Virus record (IMG/VR): IMGVR_UViG_3300019889_000017
Location: 1-60,897 of that record
Source of the DNA: a virus
Length of the DNA: 60,897 bases
Reading direction: 5' to 3' (one strand)
Position 1 is the stretch's first letter. The number at the start of each line of letters is the position of its first letter. The translations under genes were made by a program, and so were the position numbers. Positions 2,676 through 46,507 of the stretch are shown piece by piece. The notes below the pieces were generated by a model that saw only the letters and a list, made by a program, of their open reading frames with translations, was not told the DNA's origin and did no database searches.

Positions 2676-2714
2676 AGAAGGCCTCGCCGGAGAACCCGGA
2701 GAGGCCTTCTTCCA
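2676..2714. terminator. Hairpin terminator downstream of the I36-like gene
   Basis: AGAAGGCCTC (2676-2685) pairs with GAGGCCTTCT (2701-2710). The 15-nt loop holds a second short CCGG stem. It lies 3' of gene 2786-3253 (-). Confidence 0.6.
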
Positions 2715-2785
2715 CGTCTACTTCCCGCCGCTGCCGGGTGTCGGTCTCGGCCGTGGTGGGCAGGGGTCAGGATCGTGTCGCGCCA

Positions 2786-3253
2786 TCAGCACGTACCGCC
2801 GGTGCGCCCGGGCACCGTGTTGACGCTGCTGATGACGGCGTTGTAGATGCCCAGCGACGCGTCCGACTCGCCCGGCTGCATCGTCCAGTAGTTGTTGCCG
2901 GTGCAGTTGTGGTTGTCCCAGTACCGAATGACGCTTCCGCTCTTGTTGTAGAGCGACCGGAAGGCGTTGTCGGACCGGCCCGCCAGCGGGAAACCGTCCT
3001 CCTGCCAGATGTACCCGGCAGTCCACTGGTAGATGCGGCCGGTCGCGCCGACACCGGTCCACCCGCAGGCGTAGCCGATGAGGCAGTCAGCGGTGCCGAT
3101 GCTCGGCGCGTCGCCCACCAGCAGCGGGGGCCGGACGGCGTTCCATTCGTTGCCCGCCACCGGCGTGGTCGCCTGGGCGGAGGTCTGGGTCACGAAGCCG
3201 AGCCCGGCGGCGAACACCACCGCGGCCAAGAGCAGCTTGGTCCTGTTCAGCAT
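2786..3253 (-). CDS. Secreted peptidase-inhibitor-I36-like protein
   Basis: This 155-residue protein has a clear Sec signal peptide (NRTKLL, hydrophobic core 8-20, cleavage near 27). The mature part has paired cysteines and aromatic blocks (CLIGYACGWT; FRSLYN; VIRYWDNHNCTG), typical of the beta/gamma-crystallin-like I36 proteins secreted by Streptomyces. It would be exported from the infected cell. Whether it inhibits a protease is not shown. It has its own promoter (3290-3318) and terminator, as a moron-type accessory gene would. Confidence 0.72.
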   Translation of the reverse strand: MLNRTKLLLAAVVFAAGLGFVTQTSAQATTPVAGNEWNAVRPPLLVGDAPSIGTADCLIGYACGWTGVGATGRIYQWTAGYIWQEDGFPLAGRSDNAFRSLYNKSGSVIRYWDNHNCTGNNYWTMQPGESDASLGIYNAVISSVNTVPGRTGGTC

Positions 3254-3289
3254 GTCATCCCTCTCGTTGGAATCGTGTGCTCCGCGGCA

Positions 3290-3318
3290 ACCTTAACAGT
3301 CATGACGTCAAGGTACAA
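3290..3318 (-). promoter_or_regulatory. TTGTAC-N17-TAAGGT promoter
   Basis: Minus-strand -35 TTGTAC (3318-3313) and -10 TAAGGT (3295-3290). The spacer contains GTCATGACTG, as in other promoters of this genome. It drives gene 2786-3253. Confidence 0.75.
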
Positions 3319-3540
3319 TCAGGGGATGAGGTGATTGACCCGGCAGCACGGACAGGAATTGATGAAGACCCCGTCCCCGCACCGGCTCAACCCGCAGGCC
3401 CAGCAGAGCTGTGCCTCGGTGCGCTGCACCTCCCGGCCAGCCTCGCGGATCGCGGCGGCCATCTTCCTGACCCGGTACCACAGCTTGGTCACGACTTCTC
3501 GAATCCGCAGCTCAGGCCGGAGGCCCGAACGCCCTGTCAC
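3319..3540 (-). CDS. Small cysteine-rich (zinc-ribbon-like) protein
   Basis: A 73-residue ORF ends in a cysteine cluster (CWACGLSRCGDG and CPCC), which suggests a zinc-binding fold. The longest start, GTG 3540, overlaps the previous gene by 29 bp. A GTG at 3492 after GAGAAG would give 57 residues and is an equal candidate. It closes the terminase operon. Function unknown. Confidence 0.6.
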   Translation of the reverse strand: MTGRSGLRPELRIREVVTKLWYRVRKMAAAIREAGREVQRTEAQLCWACGLSRCGDGVFINSCPCCRVNHLIP

Positions 3541-6220: not shown

Positions 6221-7075
6221 TCAGGCGGCGAAGTCCACCTTGCGGCGCCGCGAGAGCACGATCAGAAATGCTCCGGTAGCGGCGACCATGACTCCGACAG
6301 CGATCAGGACGCCGGTACCGGCGCCGGTGACCGGCAGGCTGGGCCCGCTGATACCGGCGCCGCCGGTGGGCAGCGGCGCCGGAGCCGTCGGTCCCGGCTG
6401 GGTCGCCGTGGCGCTCGCGCTGGGACTCGGGCTTGAGCTCGGCGTCGGGCTGGCGCTCGGGGAGGGGCTGGGCGGGTAGCAGGCCAGCGGGTAGATCTTG
6501 CCGTCGAACGTCACCGACTTGACCAGTGCGGAGTTGCCGGTGTCCTTGGCGTAACCGACGCCGAACGTGCCGACCACGGTTGCGGCCGTGTAGTTCCACA
6601 GCCCCACCAGGTCACCGGCGGTGTCCACCGGGTTGGACTGGCCGCCGACATCGGCAGCGCCGATCTTGCTCGACCAGAACTTGCCGCCCGCGGTGACGTT
6701 GACCGTGGAGTACGGATTCGCCGTCTCCATCTTGAACAGCGGGAGCGCGCCTACTTTGAGCGCGGCCGTGAACGACCCCGCCTCGACGTCGGCCAGCTTG
6801 ATCCCGGTCGGGCTCGCGGTGTGGTGGTGGATGATGCTCGGGCCGTTGAACAGGAACCCGGCGGGCTTCTGCTCGGGTCGCAGGTCCACGGTGTCCGCGG
6901 TGGGCTGGCCGTCGCCGTTCTCGTCCACGTTGACGTACCAGCCGGAGGCGTTCGGGCAGTTCGCCGAGCCGGTGGGGCTGTAGCCGATCTCGGTGGCCTG
7001 CGCCGGGCCGCTCATCGCGAGGGCGCCGACCAGCACGCCGAGCGAGACAGCAGCCAGCCTAGTATTGATCTTCAT
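6221..7075 (-). CDS. LPxTG cell-wall-anchored surface protein
   Basis: This 284-residue protein has a Sec signal peptide (1-27, AQA cleavage site), an ectodomain of about 170 residues, a long Pro/Ser/Thr-rich stalk (about 200-245), and a complete sortase sorting signal: LPVTG at 247-251, a hydrophobic helix and a basic tail (SRRRK). Host sortase would link it covalently to the cell wall. I infer a role at the infected-cell surface, for example blocking superinfection. It has its own promoter (7111-7140) and terminator. Confidence 0.85.
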   Translation of the reverse strand: MKINTRLAAVSLGVLVGALAMSGPAQATEIGYSPTGSANCPNASGWYVNVDENGDGQPTADTVDLRPEQKPAGFLFNGPSIIHHHTASPTGIKLADVEAGSFTAALKVGALPLFKMETANPYSTVNVTAGGKFWSSKIGAADVGGQSNPVDTAGDLVGLWNYTAATVVGTFGVGYAKDTGNSALVKSVTFDGKIYPLACYPPSPSPSASPTPSSSPSPSASATATQPGPTAPAPLPTGGAGISGPSLPVTGAGTGVLIAVGVMVAATGAFLIVLSRRRKVDFAA

Positions 7076-7110
7076 GTATGTCTCTTCCCCTGTCGGTTGG
7101 GTCGGGCGGA

Positions 7111-7140
7111 ACCTTACAGCATCTACGGGGAGGTGATCAA
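7111..7140 (-). promoter_or_regulatory. TTGATC-N18-TAAGGT promoter
   Basis: Minus-strand -35 TTGATC (7140-7135), -10 TAAGGT (7116-7111), spacing 18 bp. It precedes the LPxTG gene. Confidence 0.7.
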
Positions 7141-7144
7141 GCGG

Positions 7145-7840
7145 TCAGGCAAGCGTGACTACGACGTCACGGTCGAACAGGAATCCGTCCGTGCTCACCA
7201 CCGCGCGCACCGCCTTGACGCCCTTGGGCAGGTCGTAGAAGGCGTATGCGCGGATCGAGTTGCCGGGGTTCAGCTCCGTGTACCAGCCGGTCAGGTCCTT
7301 GTTCCCGAAGATGTTGGCCGTGCCGTCCGCGCTGAACTGCCGACCGGCGGCGTCCTCGACCTTGATCCGGCCGTCGGCGTCGAAGTACATCGGCTGGTCG
7401 CCGACGTTCTTCACGGTGACGTCCAGCCGGGTGTACACGCCCTGCGCCTTCTGCCGGTTGTATTGGCCGCCCACCTGCGTGAGGCCGGTCTTCACCCCGT
7501 GGAACGTGTACTGGAAGTCGCCGGAGAGGAACGTCTTACCGACGGTGTAGGCGGCCGGGCCCTTGTCCGCGCCCAGGCTCTTCTCGGCAGCCGGAGCCGC
7601 GGGCATGGTGGTGAACCCCGCCTTCGGGTCACCGCTGCCTCCGGCGATCCCGATGACGGCCACGGCCGAGAACATCAGGAAGAGCCCGCCGAGCACGACC
7701 AGAATGATCGCCCAGACCGGGAAGCCCTTCTTCCTCCCCGCGGTCTCGGTCGGCAACAGCAGCGCGGCGGAGGCCGGGCCGGGCGAGATGGGGGCCGAGG
7801 TCCGGTCCAGGCTGATAAGTGTCTTCAGTGGGTCGCTCAT
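7145..7840 (-). CDS. Membrane-anchored DUF4352-like protein
   Basis: This 231-residue protein starts at ATG 7840. A cytoplasmic N terminus of about 45 residues is followed by one transmembrane helix (WAIILVVLGGLFLMFSAVAV) and an extracytoplasmic beta domain whose block YTRLDVTVKNVGDQP is typical of DUF4352/telokin-like domains of actinobacterial envelope proteins. Together with the LPxTG, I36-like and PQ-loop genes it forms an envelope-modifying set. The biochemical role is unknown. Confidence 0.75.
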   Translation of the reverse strand: MSDPLKTLISLDRTSAPISPGPASAALLLPTETAGRKKGFPVWAIILVVLGGLFLMFSAVAVIGIAGGSGDPKAGFTTMPAAPAAEKSLGADKGPAAYTVGKTFLSGDFQYTFHGVKTGLTQVGGQYNRQKAQGVYTRLDVTVKNVGDQPMYFDADGRIKVEDAAGRQFSADGTANIFGNKDLTGWYTELNPGNSIRAYAFYDLPKGVKAVRAVVSTDGFLFDRDVVVTLA

Positions 7841-7947
7841 TGTTCGGTCTCCTTGATACGTAATTGTCAAAGTTTGGGGTGCCCGGACTCGGGACGTGTG
7901 CGTTCTGGATGTTGGGACGGCCCTGGTCCCGAGCCGGACGAGACGTT

Positions 7948-7977: not shown

Positions 7978-8033
7978 CCCAGGGCAGGGCGCTTCTGCAA
8001 TAGGTATCGAGCCGAGATTGGCCCCGCCCCGGG
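7978..8033 (-). ncRNA. TIGR-like hairpin 3' of the polymerase gene
   Basis: CCCAGGGCAGGGC (7978-7990) pairs with 8021-8033 around a 30-nt loop (gcttctgcaa, TAGGTATCG at 8001-8009, agccgagattg). Its two mismatches become G-U pairs on the minus strand. It starts 4 nt after the polymerase stop codon. It has the same design as the array units at 18.1-18.8 kb, with a different GC-rich stem. Confidence 0.75.
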
Positions 8034-13069: not shown

Positions 13070-13123
13070 CCGGGGCCGGGCGGCACTGGTTTGGGTATCG
13101 AAGCCCTTCTGGCCCAGCCCCGG
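13070..13123 (-). ncRNA. TIGR-like hairpin 3' of the SF2 helicase gene
   Basis: CCGGGGCCGGGC (13070-13081) pairs with GCCCAGCCCCGG (13112-13123). Its single mismatch is a G-U pair on the minus strand. The 30-nt loop is ggcactggtt, TGGGTATCG (13092-13100), aagcccttctg. It begins 5 nt after the helicase stop codon. Confidence 0.8.
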
Positions 13124-16394: not shown

Positions 16395-16644
16395 CCACGG
16401 TGTTCACTTGCTGGGTACCAGAGAAGGTGTTGACCGTGGAGTGTGGCCCCCGAGCTGGGTGGGCCGCCATTGGGTAGCGAGACGAATATGACCCAGCTCG
16501 GGGAGTCTATGAAGTTGAGCCTCCGGTCCGCGGTGGTTCGTGTATGGGTACCGAAGCGACCTTGACCGCGACCCGGAGGGGTGTGAGCCCCGAGCTGGGT
16601 GTGCGGCAAATGGGTATCGAGCGATCGATGACCCCAGCTCGGGG
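16395..16644 (-). ncRNA. Cluster of four TIGR-like hairpins 3' of the Tas-like gene
   Basis: Four hairpins carry the motif at 16412 (TGGGTACCA), 16471 (TGGGTAGCG), 16545 (TGGGTACCG) and 16611 (TGGGTATCG). Stems are CCACGGT (16395-16401/16433-16439), CCCCGAGCTGGGT (16448-16460/16491-16503), a 15-bp imperfect stem (16520-16534/16565-16579), and again CCCCGAGCTGGGT (16588-16600/16631-16644). Loops are 30 nt (31 in the first). Flanks such as gggccgccat/agacgaatatg and gtgcggcaaa/agcgatcgatg are all different. Hairpins 2 and 4 share stems. The last begins 6 nt after the stop codon of the Tas-like gene. Confidence 0.8.
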
Positions 16645-16650
16645 AGTCTC

Positions 16651-17490
16651 CTAGTCGTTCGCAGCGTGCCAGTCCCGGGCCGCGATCCAGAGATCCTTCA
16701 GCACGGTCTTGCTGACGATCCTCAGCGCGTCGGCGTGCTGGTGGCCCGGCCGCCACGGGGCGGTGATCAGCTCCGTCTTACCGGCGCCGTTGCACTGCGG
16801 GCACGGCCGGTCGTGGACCTTCTCCGCGGTCACCGCCCGGCGCTTGTCGTAGACCTCGCGGTACGGGGAGCGAGCCTGCTTGACGCAACTCTCCGAGATC
16901 AGGTAGGCGCGCGTCTTGGCGTCCGTCGACCAGTTCGACTTCTGGCCCTTCCTGCGCCGGGCGGCACCCCGAATGCTGGCATTCTGGGTGTCGAGCTCTA
17001 TTTGACCCGAGATGCCGCCCGGCTGTTCATCCCCGCCGATGCTCCGACCTTGAGCACCGCTAGGTGTATGAACGACGGGGATCGTGTGCAGGCCACTGTA
17101 GGCCCAGAGTTCACTGACGGTGCGCGGCCGGTCGTGGAGGATGTTCCAGTACGGGTCGCCGATGGTGGCCAGTAGGCGCGCCAGCTGCTTCTCCCCGATC
17201 CCGATCTGTTCCTTCTGCCACGGCCCCAGCGGGTGCTTCCGCATCGCTCGCTGAAGGCCGAGGATGACGGCGTGCTCCAGTTTGGCGAGGTTCTCCCCGG
17301 CAACGCGGATGGCCGCGACGTCGGGGTCGTCCGGCGACAGGCCCATCCCCCGCATCTCGTCGTCCGAGTCGACTTCGGACCGGGTGGCCTGCCGGAACCG
17401 GTTGTCCGTGGCCTTGCGTAGCTCCTCCAGACCGTCGAGCTGGGCGGCCAGCAGGAAGATCGCGGTGTTGCCGCGCAACATCTCACTCAT
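16651..17490 (-). CDS. Tas-like (IS110 C-terminal/Nop-type) protein, nuclease-less
   Basis: This 279-residue protein resembles the C-terminal domain of IS110-family transposases: the helix-hairpin block IGIGEKQLARLLATIGDP (96-113) with SELWAYSGL (126-134), then RRRKGQKSNWS and KTRAYLISESCVKQ (178-205) with SPYREVYDKRR (208-218). The N-terminal RuvC-like DEDD domain of a transposase is absent; residues 1-95 are helical. A CPQC pair (230-233) and HQH (250-252) near the end may bind zinc. No HNH or RuvC motif is visible. Hairpin arrays on both sides fit a guide-RNA-binding TasA-type protein. ATG 17490 overlaps the upstream gene by 8 bp. Confidence 0.75.
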   Translation of the reverse strand: MSEMLRGNTAIFLLAAQLDGLEELRKATDNRFRQATRSEVDSDDEMRGMGLSPDDPDVAAIRVAGENLAKLEHAVILGLQRAMRKHPLGPWQKEQIGIGEKQLARLLATIGDPYWNILHDRPRTVSELWAYSGLHTIPVVHTPSGAQGRSIGGDEQPGGISGQIELDTQNASIRGAARRRKGQKSNWSTDAKTRAYLISESCVKQARSPYREVYDKRRAVTAEKVHDRPCPQCNGAGKTELITAPWRPGHQHADALRIVSKTVLKDLWIAARDWHAAND

Positions 17491-18055
17491 CGCACAGCAC
17501 CTCTTCGACCTGCTCATCGGAGAGGTCGGCGACGACCTCGACGTGGTGTTGCTGCATCACCTTGACCAGCTTGCGGTACTTGCGCGCCGTGGTGGCGTTG
17601 GCCTCGGACTGCCGGTCCGACTCGGCCGCGGCGAACTCCAGGTCCGCAATCGTGCACCGCTCGATGTCACGGTACGTCTTGTTGCCCAGCCAGAGGGACA
17701 GCCGGACGCGGTGCTTCCGGAACAACGCGACGCGGGAGTTCCGGACGTTGCCGCCACCGGGGAGGACGCCGGCTGATTGGGCAGCGATGCGGGTTTGGTC
17801 CTCCCCGGTGACGGTGCTTTGACCCGGCTCGATGGTGTCCCTCTGGGTATCGGCTGCCAGTTGATCGGGCCGGGAGTCCTTGCGCGGGACGGTGGCCAGT
17901 TCCCGGCGGACCGTCTCGGTCAGCGCCTGGCGGTAGGCCTCGCTCGTTGCGGCCTTGGGCGTGCGTTCGAAGATCAGGTTGGCCAGGGTGTCCAGGTTCT
18001 CCTCGGTGGTGTCCGTGAGGATCGCCCGGATGTGCTGGCGGAGGTCGAATTTCAT
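17483..18055 (-). CDS. Conserved hypothetical protein between the array and the Tas-like gene
   Basis: A 190-residue protein starts at ATG 18055. The frame stays open upstream through the hairpin array, but the ATG after GGAGAGGAACC is preferred because the upstream part is repeat RNA. It has an N-terminal helical domain (LTDTTEENLDTLANLIFERTPK), a variable linker (100-135) and a basic C-terminal helix bundle (TARKYRKLVKVMQQ). Translation is coupled to the Tas-like gene, so it may be a partner, though it could equally be an ordinary replication-module gene. Confidence 0.7.
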   Translation of the reverse strand: MKFDLRQHIRAILTDTTEENLDTLANLIFERTPKAATSEAYRQALTETVRRELATVPRKDSRPDQLAADTQRDTIEPGQSTVTGEDQTRIAAQSAGVLPGGGNVRNSRVALFRKHRVRLSLWLGNKTYRDIERCTIADLEFAAAESDRQSEANATTARKYRKLVKVMQQHHVEVVADLSDEQVEEVLCDE

Positions 18056-18087: not shown

Positions 18088-18783
18088 CCGGTACGAATGG
18101 CGACGCTATGGGTATCGTATGGGCTGTGATTCGTACCGGGTCAAGAACAGACGGTGCGCTGCATTTGGGTATCGGCGGTGTATTGACCGTCTGCTCATGA
18201 CCCGGTACGAATGTAGAGTGGTTGGGTATCGGTGGGACTTTGATTCGTACCGGTTCAAGAACAGACGGTGTGCCGAGCTTGGGTATCAGCGAACCTGTGA
18301 CCATCTGCTCATGATCCGGTACGAATGTAGGAAACATGGGTATCGGACCCGCTTTGATTCGTACCGGTTCAAGAACAGACGGTGGGACGACTTTGGATAT
18401 CGGGAGGACTATGACCGTCTGCTCATGACCCGGTACGAATGGTGTCCCCATGGGTATCGGATCCGCTTTGATTCGTACCGGTTCAAGAACAGACGGTGCT
18501 TTGCCTTTGGGTATCGGAGAACCTTTAAACCGTCTGCTCATGACCTGGTACGAATGCGGGGAGCTTGGGTATCGAATCTTCACTGATTCGTACCGGCTCA
18601 TGAGCAGACGGTGCGTTCCTTATGGTTGACGGTGTCACCTTGACCGTCTGCTCATTGACCGATGTGAATGATTGATCCGTGGGTATCGCCGATACAATGA
18701 TTCACACCAGTGAATGAACAGACGGGGTTCCCCGGGGCGGTGATCGAACTCTGGATATCGCCACCATCTTGACCGCCCCGGGG
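18088..18783 (-). repeat. TIGR-like array: 12 tandem hairpins with variable 30-nt loops
   Basis: The loop motif (TGGGTATCG or one to three changes) occurs at 18109, 18166, 18223, 18280, 18337, 18394, 18451, 18508, 18566, 18623, 18680 and 18752, a 57-bp period up to the irregular last unit. Between loops lie 27-nt edges that alternate between ATTCGTACC...CAGACGGT and its near reverse complement ACCGTCTG...GGTACGAAT. Variable flanks (plus strand) include ggcgacgcta/tatgggctgtg, gcgctgcatt/gcggtgtattg, gtagagtggt/gtgggactttg, gtgccgagct/gcgaacctgtg, gtaggaaaca/gacccgctttg, gggacgactt/ggaggactatg, ggtgtcccca/gatccgctttg and gcggggagct/aatcttcactg. The right flank usually ends in TG. Stem mismatches are mostly G-U on the minus strand. 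It begins 7 nt after the stop of gene 18791. Confidence 0.9.
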
Positions 18784-19285: not shown

Positions 19286-19333
19286 CCGGCTGGACGGCTT
19301 CCTCAATACGCGTAGGCAGTGCCGTCCAGCCGG
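19286..19333. other. 13-bp hairpin in the leader of gene 18791-19243
   Basis: CCGGCTGGACGGC (19286-19298) pairs perfectly with 19321-19333 around a 22-nt loop that contains CGCGTA. The loop lacks the TGGGTATCG motif. It may be an attenuator or RNA-stability element. Confidence 0.6.
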
Positions 19334-25103: not shown

Positions 25104-25403
25104 TCAGGCTGCAGCGGACACCAGGTCCGTGCGCGCGCCCTGGCCTGGGCGGCCGGCCTTCCACTCGTCCAGGCTGGCCCGGGTGAAAACGGGCAGGTTG
25201 TACTGACCCTCTGCCTTCCGGTCGGGGTTGGCCTCCGGCCCGATGCCGCGCGCGACGTAGCTGGAGAGGGTGTTCCGCTTCAGGCCCAGGTACTCGGCCG
25301 CCGGACCGTACCCGACGAATTCATCGGGAAGGTCAGACAAGATCTCCGTGGATCTCGCACCCATGATGGTCTGGCCTCCCTGATCAACTCGCAGTCCAGT
25401 CAC
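25104..25403 (-). CDS. Helix-turn-helix protein (excisionase/MerR-like)
   Basis: The block GYGPAAEYLGLKRNTLSSYVARGIGPEA is a typical HTH_17/AlpA-like DNA-binding motif, followed by FTRASLDEWKAGRPG, the usual end of such domains. GTG 25403 lies 7 nt after a -10 box and would give 99 residues from a leaderless mRNA. ATG 25364 after GGGAGG would give 86 and is also possible. A transcriptional regulator; whether it reads the phage operators is unknown. Confidence 0.78.
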   Translation of the reverse strand: MTGLRVDQGGQTIMGARSTEILSDLPDEFVGYGPAAEYLGLKRNTLSSYVARGIGPEANPDRKAEGQYNLPVFTRASLDEWKAGRPGQGARTDLVSAAA

Positions 25404-45515: not shown

Positions 45516-46507
45516 GGCTGGTCTACCTCCTGGAACGAGCGTACGGGACGTGGTGTCCAGGGGTAGGTGCTGACGGGGTTCTGGGGGAAGGGCCAGGGCG
45601 TGACCGGCCGCCCGCTCTGCCCGTTCGATCCGCTGGCAGCGACGGCCAGGTTGAGCCCGAGCGTGGCCGAGCCGCGGGCCGGTCGGCCGCCGGCCGCCGC
45701 CGGCGCCAGACCCAGGCCTAGGGCAGCGGAGCCGCTGGCGGGCCGGGCGCCGCTGGCGGCCACCGCGAGATTCAGCGCGAGCGCTACCATGCCGCTGGCG
45801 GGCTGGGCGCCGCTGGTAGCCACCGCGAGGCCGAGGCCTAGGGCGGCAACACCGTCGCTGTCGCGCGCACCCGTACCCGCGAGCGCGAGGCCGAGGCCCA
45901 GGGCGGCAACACCGTCGCTGTCACGGGCGCCGGTGGCGGCCACTGCCAGGTTGAGGCCGACGTCTGCCGTGCCCTCGGCCGGGTCCGGCGCCTCGCTGGA
46001 CGACGAGTTGCCGTCCGCCCCGTCCCAGACCCACCCGGCGGTGTCGCCGTCCGCGTAGGTCGCCGTCTCCCCGTACCTCACGGCGGTAACGGAGATGTCC
46101 GCCGGAAGGTTGTCGATGATCAGGAATATCCCGTCGGCCAGAGCCGGGGCGGCGCCGGTGGTGAAAGAGGCGCGCTGCACGGTGCCGTCAGGCCCCAGGG
46201 CCGCGGTGTTGAAGTTCTCCGGGAAGTCTTCTCCACCGCCGGACAGGGTGTAGCCGACGAAGACCTGATTGCCGCCGCTGATCGTGCCGCCGGTGCTGTT
46301 CTTGATATCGAAGCTGACAGTGGTCACGTCGCCCGTGGCGACCACGCCGGTCGGCGGCCGGACGAACCCGCCGGAGCTAGTGGTCGTGATGCCGGTGGCT
46401 CGGGACATGCCGGTGAGACCGGTGCTGCGAACGAAAGATGAGGATGAGCTGCCGTACCCCGCGGTGTCGTTCTTAGCCGCGGGGTTGGGGCACAGGTTCC
46501 GCGCCAC
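45512..46507 (-). CDS. Virion surface protein with six 20-residue repeats
   Basis: A 331-residue protein starting at GTG 46507. The N-terminal half is a carbohydrate-binding-like beta sandwich (NLCPNPAAKNDTAGYG; VVATGDVTTVSFDIKN). The second half has six tandem repeats of about 20 residues, consensus G-xAALGLGLAxAxxGARxSD. The DNA repeats are of 60 bp, so copy number could change by slippage. Probably displayed on capsid or tail and involved in surface attachment. Confidence 0.65.
   Translation of the reverse strand: MARNLCPNPAAKNDTAGYGSSSSSFVRSTGLTGMSRATGITTTSSGGFVRPPTGVVATGDVTTVSFDIKNSTGGTISGGNQVFVGYTLSGGGEDFPENFNTAALGPDGTVQRASFTTGAAPALADGIFLIIDNLPADISVTAVRYGETATYADGDTAGWVWDGADGNSSSSEAPDPAEGTADVGLNLAVAATGARDSDGVAALGLGLALAGTGARDSDGVAALGLGLAVATSGAQPASGMVALALNLAVAASGARPASGSAALGLGLAPAAAGGRPARGSATLGLNLAVAASGSNGQSGRPVTPWPFPQNPVSTYPWTPRPVRSFQEVDQP

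Follow-up and report, generated by a model that had tools for sequence, protein, structure and literature searches.

A probable stem-loop TIGR array next to a nuclease-less Tas gene in an IMG/VR virus, and its counterparts in mycobacteriophages

The IMG/VR virus record IMGVR_UViG_3300019889_000017 (60,897 nt, analysed over its whole length and referred to below as the window) carries at nt 18088–18783 a tandem array of palindromic units, followed on the minus strand by a small partner gene and by tasA, a gene specifying a Tas protein without a nuclease domain. As the units are guide-like, have covarying stems and have a TasA gene as neighbour, the array and tasA are best explained as a stem-loop TIGR-TasA system, a kind that is already known, and this assignment is very probably correct. 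The main text of Faure et al. (2025; PMC12045711) describes nuclease-less TasA proteins with stem-loop TIGR arrays, one locus being processed into single hairpin units, and leaves open where spacers come from, how arrays expand, what their natural targets are and what TasA does. The first-pass annotation of the array was too narrow, as about ten further hairpins of the array type occur elsewhere in the phage.

Organisation of the array and covariation of its stems

The loop cores of the 12 array units begin at nt 18109, 18166, 18223, 18280, 18337, 18394, 18451, 18508, 18566, 18623, 18680 and 18752 (units are named below by these positions), and all 12 point the same way, in agreement with the first-pass annotation, which had every loop enclosed by inverted repeats and the core in a fixed orientation. 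The 57 bp register and the final step of 72 bp that it gave are also correct. Its step counts are not, the order being seven steps of 57 bp, then 58, 57, 57 and 72 (nine of 57, one of 58, one of 72). Adjoining 27-nt edges are reverse complementary, as had been stated, but with 2, 3, 4, 4, 3, 3, 4, 2 and 6 mismatches rather than about two throughout. The edges alternate because two stem types take turns, five units of type A (GGTACGAAT) with five of type B (CAGACGGT), and the linkers themselves are nearly complementary. The last two units depart from both types in having private stems (GATGTGAAT/ATTCACACC and CCCCGGGGCGGT/ACCGCCCCGGGG). The suggestion that they mark an older end of the array was not borne out, since dispersed units likewise have private stems and unit 18752 is the promoter-proximal end under minus-strand transcription. 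Unit 18508 has a 1-nt insertion beside its edge and unit 18623 a degenerate core. Among the A-type units of the array the stems differ by 0–4% and the spacers by 56–70%, while the corresponding 3' stem values of the B-type units come out too high owing to the 1-nt shift in unit 18508. Units 18337 and 18451 have one spacer in common (1 mismatch), which is what tandem duplication of an A–B pair would leave. No close relative of the window array itself was found. An alternating two-stem array with steps of about 54 bp, similar in plan to the A–B alternation but with unrelated stems, is present in another viral contig (L080, nt 6606–7150).

Read on the plus strand, opposite to the genes, the units have the form stem-RRY / G N9 TGGGTATCG N9 TG / RYY-stem (83 non-redundant units from 12 loci). 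On the minus strand this reads stem-RRY-CA-(9 nt)-CGAUACCCA-(9 nt)-C-RYY-stem with a loop of 30 nt, and each unit holds two spacers of 9 + 9 nt flanked by box C (..CA / CCA) and box D-like (C+R) letters. The minus strand is taken as the RNA strand because the units are co-oriented with tas (362/372) and CCA is present. Spacers are exactly 9 and 9 nt long (stem-to-core distances 10 and 11) in 42 of the 61 exact-core stem matches listed. Over the 83 units the information content is 1.4–2.0 bits in the boxes and 0.0–0.2 bits at spacer positions, and the six highest mutual informations are those of the six inner stem pairs. For the 8 inner pairs of 20 window units, 96.9% of the 160 cells are paired, double changes are seen in 8/8 pairs, and the covariation score is 1.07, compared with at most 0.21 when partners are slid. 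The edges are, by this covariation, variable but palindromic, as in the stem-loop TIGR type.

Exact copies of TGGGTATCG occur 11 times in the window (0.19 expected from shuffles), three of them outside the array at nt 13092, 16611 and 17844. A unit model combining position weights with a stem detects 22 units in the window and none when the window is reversed; it misses unit 18508 with its 1-nt insertion. The solitary and dispersed units (Table 1) are scattered across about 11 kb, and the stems that enclose their cores are unrelated to those of the array.

The letters of the spacers depend on position, and do so alike in spacers A and B: across 213 units outside tas, GC content is low at position 1 (0.33–0.39) and high at positions 3 and 6 (0.68–0.74; chi-square p 3e-12 and 1e-20). 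A 3-nt periodicity, as a sign of coding targets, was considered and rejected, as the sister mycobacteriophages show no enrichment at position 3 and the frame of units nested in genes does not fit. Within units, the similarity of A to B is below permuted values in 412 units and above them in 39 mycobacteriophage units.

The Tas protein, its association with the units and the partner gene

The tasA product matches PHROG 4285, annotated as transposase (E 2e-88), and contains 0 Pfam families. A profile built from 7 sequences matched the solved structures of TasR (9mty, E 9.8e-18) and TasH (E 1.6e-11), the alignments beginning within those chains at residue 149 or later. An AlphaFold2 model (36 sequences; predicted local distance difference test score (pLDDT) 88) has long helices in the N-terminal part, and in fold searches TasR and TasH took ranks 1–10, followed by IS621 and, weakly, Nop5. 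No nuclease domain was found in this Nop-type Tas protein, which makes it a TasA. Relatives are present in 84 of 50,697 phage records, 76 of these being Mycobacterium phages; in the named Mycobacterium and Gordonia phages among the 84 records, they carry the labels transposase, DNA binding or hypothetical protein.

The association of units with tas was found from both directions. A pattern scan of viral contigs returned 60 stretches, and about 12 contigs had true units by hairpin scan. When 417 predicted proteins from 13 groups of unit-bearing contigs were compared blind, all-against-all, the Tas family of the window was the most widespread (7/13), and it adjoins the units. Starting from the protein, 63 viral loci fetched with the Tas profile contain 372 units (4 in reversed sequence), of which 362 are oriented alike relative to tas; some of these loci are identical or almost identical to one another (L170/L171, L204/L207, L217–L220, L222/L223), and counts based on them are not independent. 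The arrays are adjacent to tas, as in stem-loop TIGR-Tas systems. In a collection of bacterial and archaeal genomes, 66 stretches showed a two-core pattern and the hairpin scan left a set of units only in L106 and L135, contigs in planctomycete metagenome-assembled genomes (MAGs) with shared units. A run of short-stem units about 51–54 bp apart was seen in a further planctomycete MAG contig (L161, nt 2695–3441) and also in L135.

The partner gene has a homologue directly upstream of tas in 52/63 loci by hidden Markov model; a first, single-sequence search had found no relatives. Its model is partly confident (pLDDT 81, predicted template modelling score 0.41) and gave no fold match. No Pfam family matches the product above threshold, and a connection with the parB-like gene mentioned in the main text of PMC12045711 is accordingly unsupported. 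Followed into the array, the frame of the gene meets no stop for 188 codons (to nt 18619). The start at nt 18055 is accompanied by a ribosome-binding-like GGAGAGG, and on that account the array is not taken to be translated.

Table 1. Positions of the putative stem-loop TIGR array, the two associated genes and the units outside the array (window coordinates)
Feature	Position (nt)	Strand	Basis or remark
Putative stem-loop TIGR array	18088–18783	-	12 units, read as RNA on the minus strand
Partner gene, 190 aa, PHROG 4604	17483–18055	-	between array and tasA; no known fold
tasA, nuclease-less Tas protein, 279 aa, PHROG 4285	16651–17490	-	profile and fold searches
Unit nested in partner gene (core 17844)	17823–17874	-	hairpin scan and unit model; exact core
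Unit nested in partner gene (core 17778)	17750–17815	-	hairpin scan and unit model
Second, weaker unit nested in tasA (core 17051)	17029–17082	-	box 9.3, stem 9.9
Unit nested in tasA coding sequence (core 16985)	16976–17013	-	inner stem imperfect; outer about 11 bp
Intergenic unit (core 16611)	16588–16644	-	hairpin scan and unit model; exact core
Intergenic unit (core 16545)	16520–16579	-	hairpin scan and unit model
Intergenic unit downstream of tasA (core 16471)	16448–16503	-	hairpin scan and unit model
Solitary unit (core 13092), between helicase gene and next gene	13070–13123	-	exact core
Solitary unit (core 8001), after DNA polymerase gene	7978–8033	-	hairpin scan and unit model
Possible solitary unit (core 7906)	7888–7933	-	box 9.7, stem 11.0
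Possible solitary unit (core 25349)	25323–25384	-	weak box 8.7, stem 15.6

Two other repeat or hairpin features of the window were recorded. A 60-bp repeat is present in 2.6 copies at nt 45805–45958, and a strong hairpin near nt 19304 (CTGGTCCGGCTGGACGGC arm) lies upstream of a pas50-like gene and is not a TIGR unit. The closest named relative over this neighbouring gene is the Actinoplanes phage phiAsp2, in whose pas50–pas53 stretch tasA and the partner gene are not annotated. No tRNA genes were detected in the window, and Rfam returned 0 families at gathering score, with weak, mostly microRNA-type matches at E up to 5. A literature search with the core motif as a plain word gave nothing related among the matches listed.

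Units within reading frames and spacer differences between sister phages

Units lie within the tas reading frame in 23/63 loci, and the culturable Gordonia phage BENtherdunthat (L174) has internal units of this sort in tasA. In the window, those in tasA fall at residues ~146 and ~168, where the AlphaFold2 model predicts disorder over residues 141–169, and those in the partner gene fall at residues ~70 and ~92, by a stretch (71–103) also predicted to be disordered. Steps between successive nested units are multiples of 3 in 27/31 cases, compared with 75/172 for units outside the frame (Fisher p 8e-6), and 45/46 nested units share one frame, the core giving D-T-H/Q or similar residues. Among 55 distinct proteins, 49 contained both anchors needed to measure the linker; following the LWxYxG motif it is 15–24 residues long without a unit and lengthens by 17.5 residues with each one added (r 0.97; 49 proteins). 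In L169–L171 the nested units are in a stop-to-stop stretch, the translation of which is uncertain. No mention of nesting in coding sequence was found in the main text of PMC12045711, and the in-frame nesting in tasA and the partner gene, the upstream partner gene itself and the array region in named phages go beyond that text.

Named Mycobacterium smegmatis phages, among them SarFire, Pinto, CactusRose and Barriga, carry the array region in 72 records; the eight sister records that were opened are of Fromanvirus. Their arrays are small and placed in front of tasA. In Pinto, gene 71 is the partner, gene 70 is tasA (annotated as transposase) and gene 69 is an exonuclease. For the alignment, three of 19 sequences without an anchor (L189, L262, L264) were dropped and one duplicate was merged, leaving 15 distinct sequences, in which stems are otherwise alike and spacers different. 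In four variable groups of 10–15 orthologous units, pairs differ by 0–6% in the 5' stem, 0–13% in the 3' stem and 6–28% in the box letters, compared with 46–64% in spacer A and 60–67% in spacer B. A fifth group (n=4) is invariant, and in a sixth (n=5) the spacers differ by 27–33%. Some units have an identical spacer A and a different spacer B (for example, TATCTCCGG with three versions of B). The first-pass annotation had regarded the units as objects that turn over, for which random point divergence of the whole region would be the wrong pattern; such divergence was not seen, as the 15 sequences keep stems and boxes while spacers differ. In one sister mycobacteriophage unit, that with the stem GGACCGGACC, the loop repeat contains a small inner hairpin (CACGGCAACTCGCCGCCA) and is 18 nt long rather than about 9 nt.

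Combining these results, a tentative proposal, which could well prove mistaken, is that the making of guides from inside the effector's own frame, within the disordered linkers of TasA and the partner, would destroy the messages and so give feedback, and that spacers may be exchanged in place between sister phages by a dedicated replacement route that leaves the stems. Confidence in the feedback of nested guides on TasA and the partner is low to moderate.

Proposed mode of action and alternative explanations

From the published family we infer how the system would work. The minus strand would be transcribed along with the operon and processed into one guide RNA per hairpin, consisting of stem, box C (..CA), spacer A (9 nt), CGAUACCCA, spacer B (9 nt), box D-like C and stem, the CGAUACCCA loop repeat providing a box D-like start and a box C end (CCA). 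A TasA dimer may hold one such unit RNA, with spacer A pairing to one strand and spacer B to the other strand of a DNA target of 18–20 bp, which the nuclease-less protein would presumably bind and bend without cutting. This binding would most likely keep a competing phage or mobile element from being transcribed or replicated. Non-cutting, RNA-guided DNA binding directed at other mobile elements is the most likely function, held with moderate confidence; the biological target and the blocking role are conjecture.

The published stem-loop TIGR/TasA loci, as presented in the main text of PMC12045711, share with the window a nuclease-less Tas protein encoded next to tandem palindromic units, variable stems in place of edge repeats, phage location, a box C of CA/CCA and, in some arrays, a conserved loop repeat. 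The window differs in having a well conserved loop repeat (CGAUACCCA), solitary units scattered over some 11 kb and in-frame nesting in tas and the partner. The dual-repeat TIGR arrays of TasR and TasH likewise have 9-nt spacer pairs, a CCA box C ending the loop repeat and a homologous protein, but here there are palindromic stems instead of short edge repeats, and no RuvC or HNH domain. CRISPR arrays are also periodic, with variable stretches of fixed length and an effector nearby, whereas here the repeats are covarying inverted partners, the spacers come in pairs of 9, and the neighbour is Tas rather than Cas.

Several results weigh against the assignment to a stem-loop TIGR-TasA system or against its proposed function. 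Folding of the hairpins, as the first-pass annotation had proposed, gave unremarkable minimum free energies: for six truncated hairpins the free energy was significantly better than that of shuffles in one case (1/6) and not in the other five. The box D-like letters are CG/CR, compared with UG in TasR arrays (PMC12045711, main text). No unit was detected by the model in 7/63 tas loci, and no partner gene by the models used in 11/63. Unit pairs with immediate flanks at least 85% identical differ at 0–2 of 18 spacer positions in 42/42 cases, so that spacers are there nearly as conserved as stems and spacer replacement is not constant. Searches for targets also gave no signal. An 8-nt 3' overhang has been published, and two statements on the cut site in the main text of the paper disagree (PMC12045711); one target strand was taken to run from spacer A into the reverse complement of spacer B because the polarity of the overhang decides the order. 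With at least 16/18 matches required, true spacer pairs gave 138 hits in 1.46 Mb and permuted pairs 137. For 59 spacer pairs from cultured phages, tried in four geometries against 2.54 Mb, there was no excess over permuted pairs. The exact 18-mers of 11 pairs were absent from the 50,697 phage records, of which 41 contained a control 18-mer. Two window pairs had 1 and 3 matches in viral contigs (the 3 all in one phage of 45% GC), close to chance.

A doubtful but still substantial alternative is that a stem-loop TIGR-TasA system regulates the phage's own genes or operon, the processing of a nested guide cutting the tasA or partner mRNA. The units in frame within tas, and in the partner gene as well, would suit such a role, as would the position of the window units in a replication and recombination operon. 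However, self-targets are not above the permuted null, the strong spacer differences between sisters would be unexpected, and the feedback is conjectural.

Far less probable is a set of dispersed operator- or stoperator-like sites, in which a repressor would bind TGGGTATCG in double-stranded DNA and the palindromes would be incidental. The one-way orientation of the core relative to transcription and its dispersal in intergenic spaces recall such sites, but covarying stems and a fixed 9 + 9 spacing of variable letters are not accounted for, and the linked protein is Tas and not a repressor. Equally improbable is an IS110-type element with tasA as its transposase and the hairpins as bridge RNA or element ends. 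IS110/IS621 bridge-RNA transposases do have a related fold and guide loops, the PHROG label is transposase, IS621 is the next fold after Tas, and one homologue has a weak Transposase_20 match (E 0.18). On the other hand, neither a DEDD (RuvC-like) domain nor Transposase_20 was found in the window protein, Tas structures score better, no look-alikes of element ends were seen, and there are many separate single-loop guides rather than one two-stem bridge RNA. Transcription terminators or mRNA-stabilising hairpins, which the strong GC stems and the location of many units after stop codons might suggest, are very improbable, given the 30-nt loops with a conserved core and the lack of any excess of terminator-like sites (short-loop GC hairpin plus T run; 1 against 2.6 expected).

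With the stem-loop TIGR-TasA assignment as the preferred reading, the culturable M. smegmatis phages make spacer replacement, targets and function of these systems open to ordinary phage genetics. Guides nested in the reading frame of their own effector would, if true, represent a new kind of dual coding.
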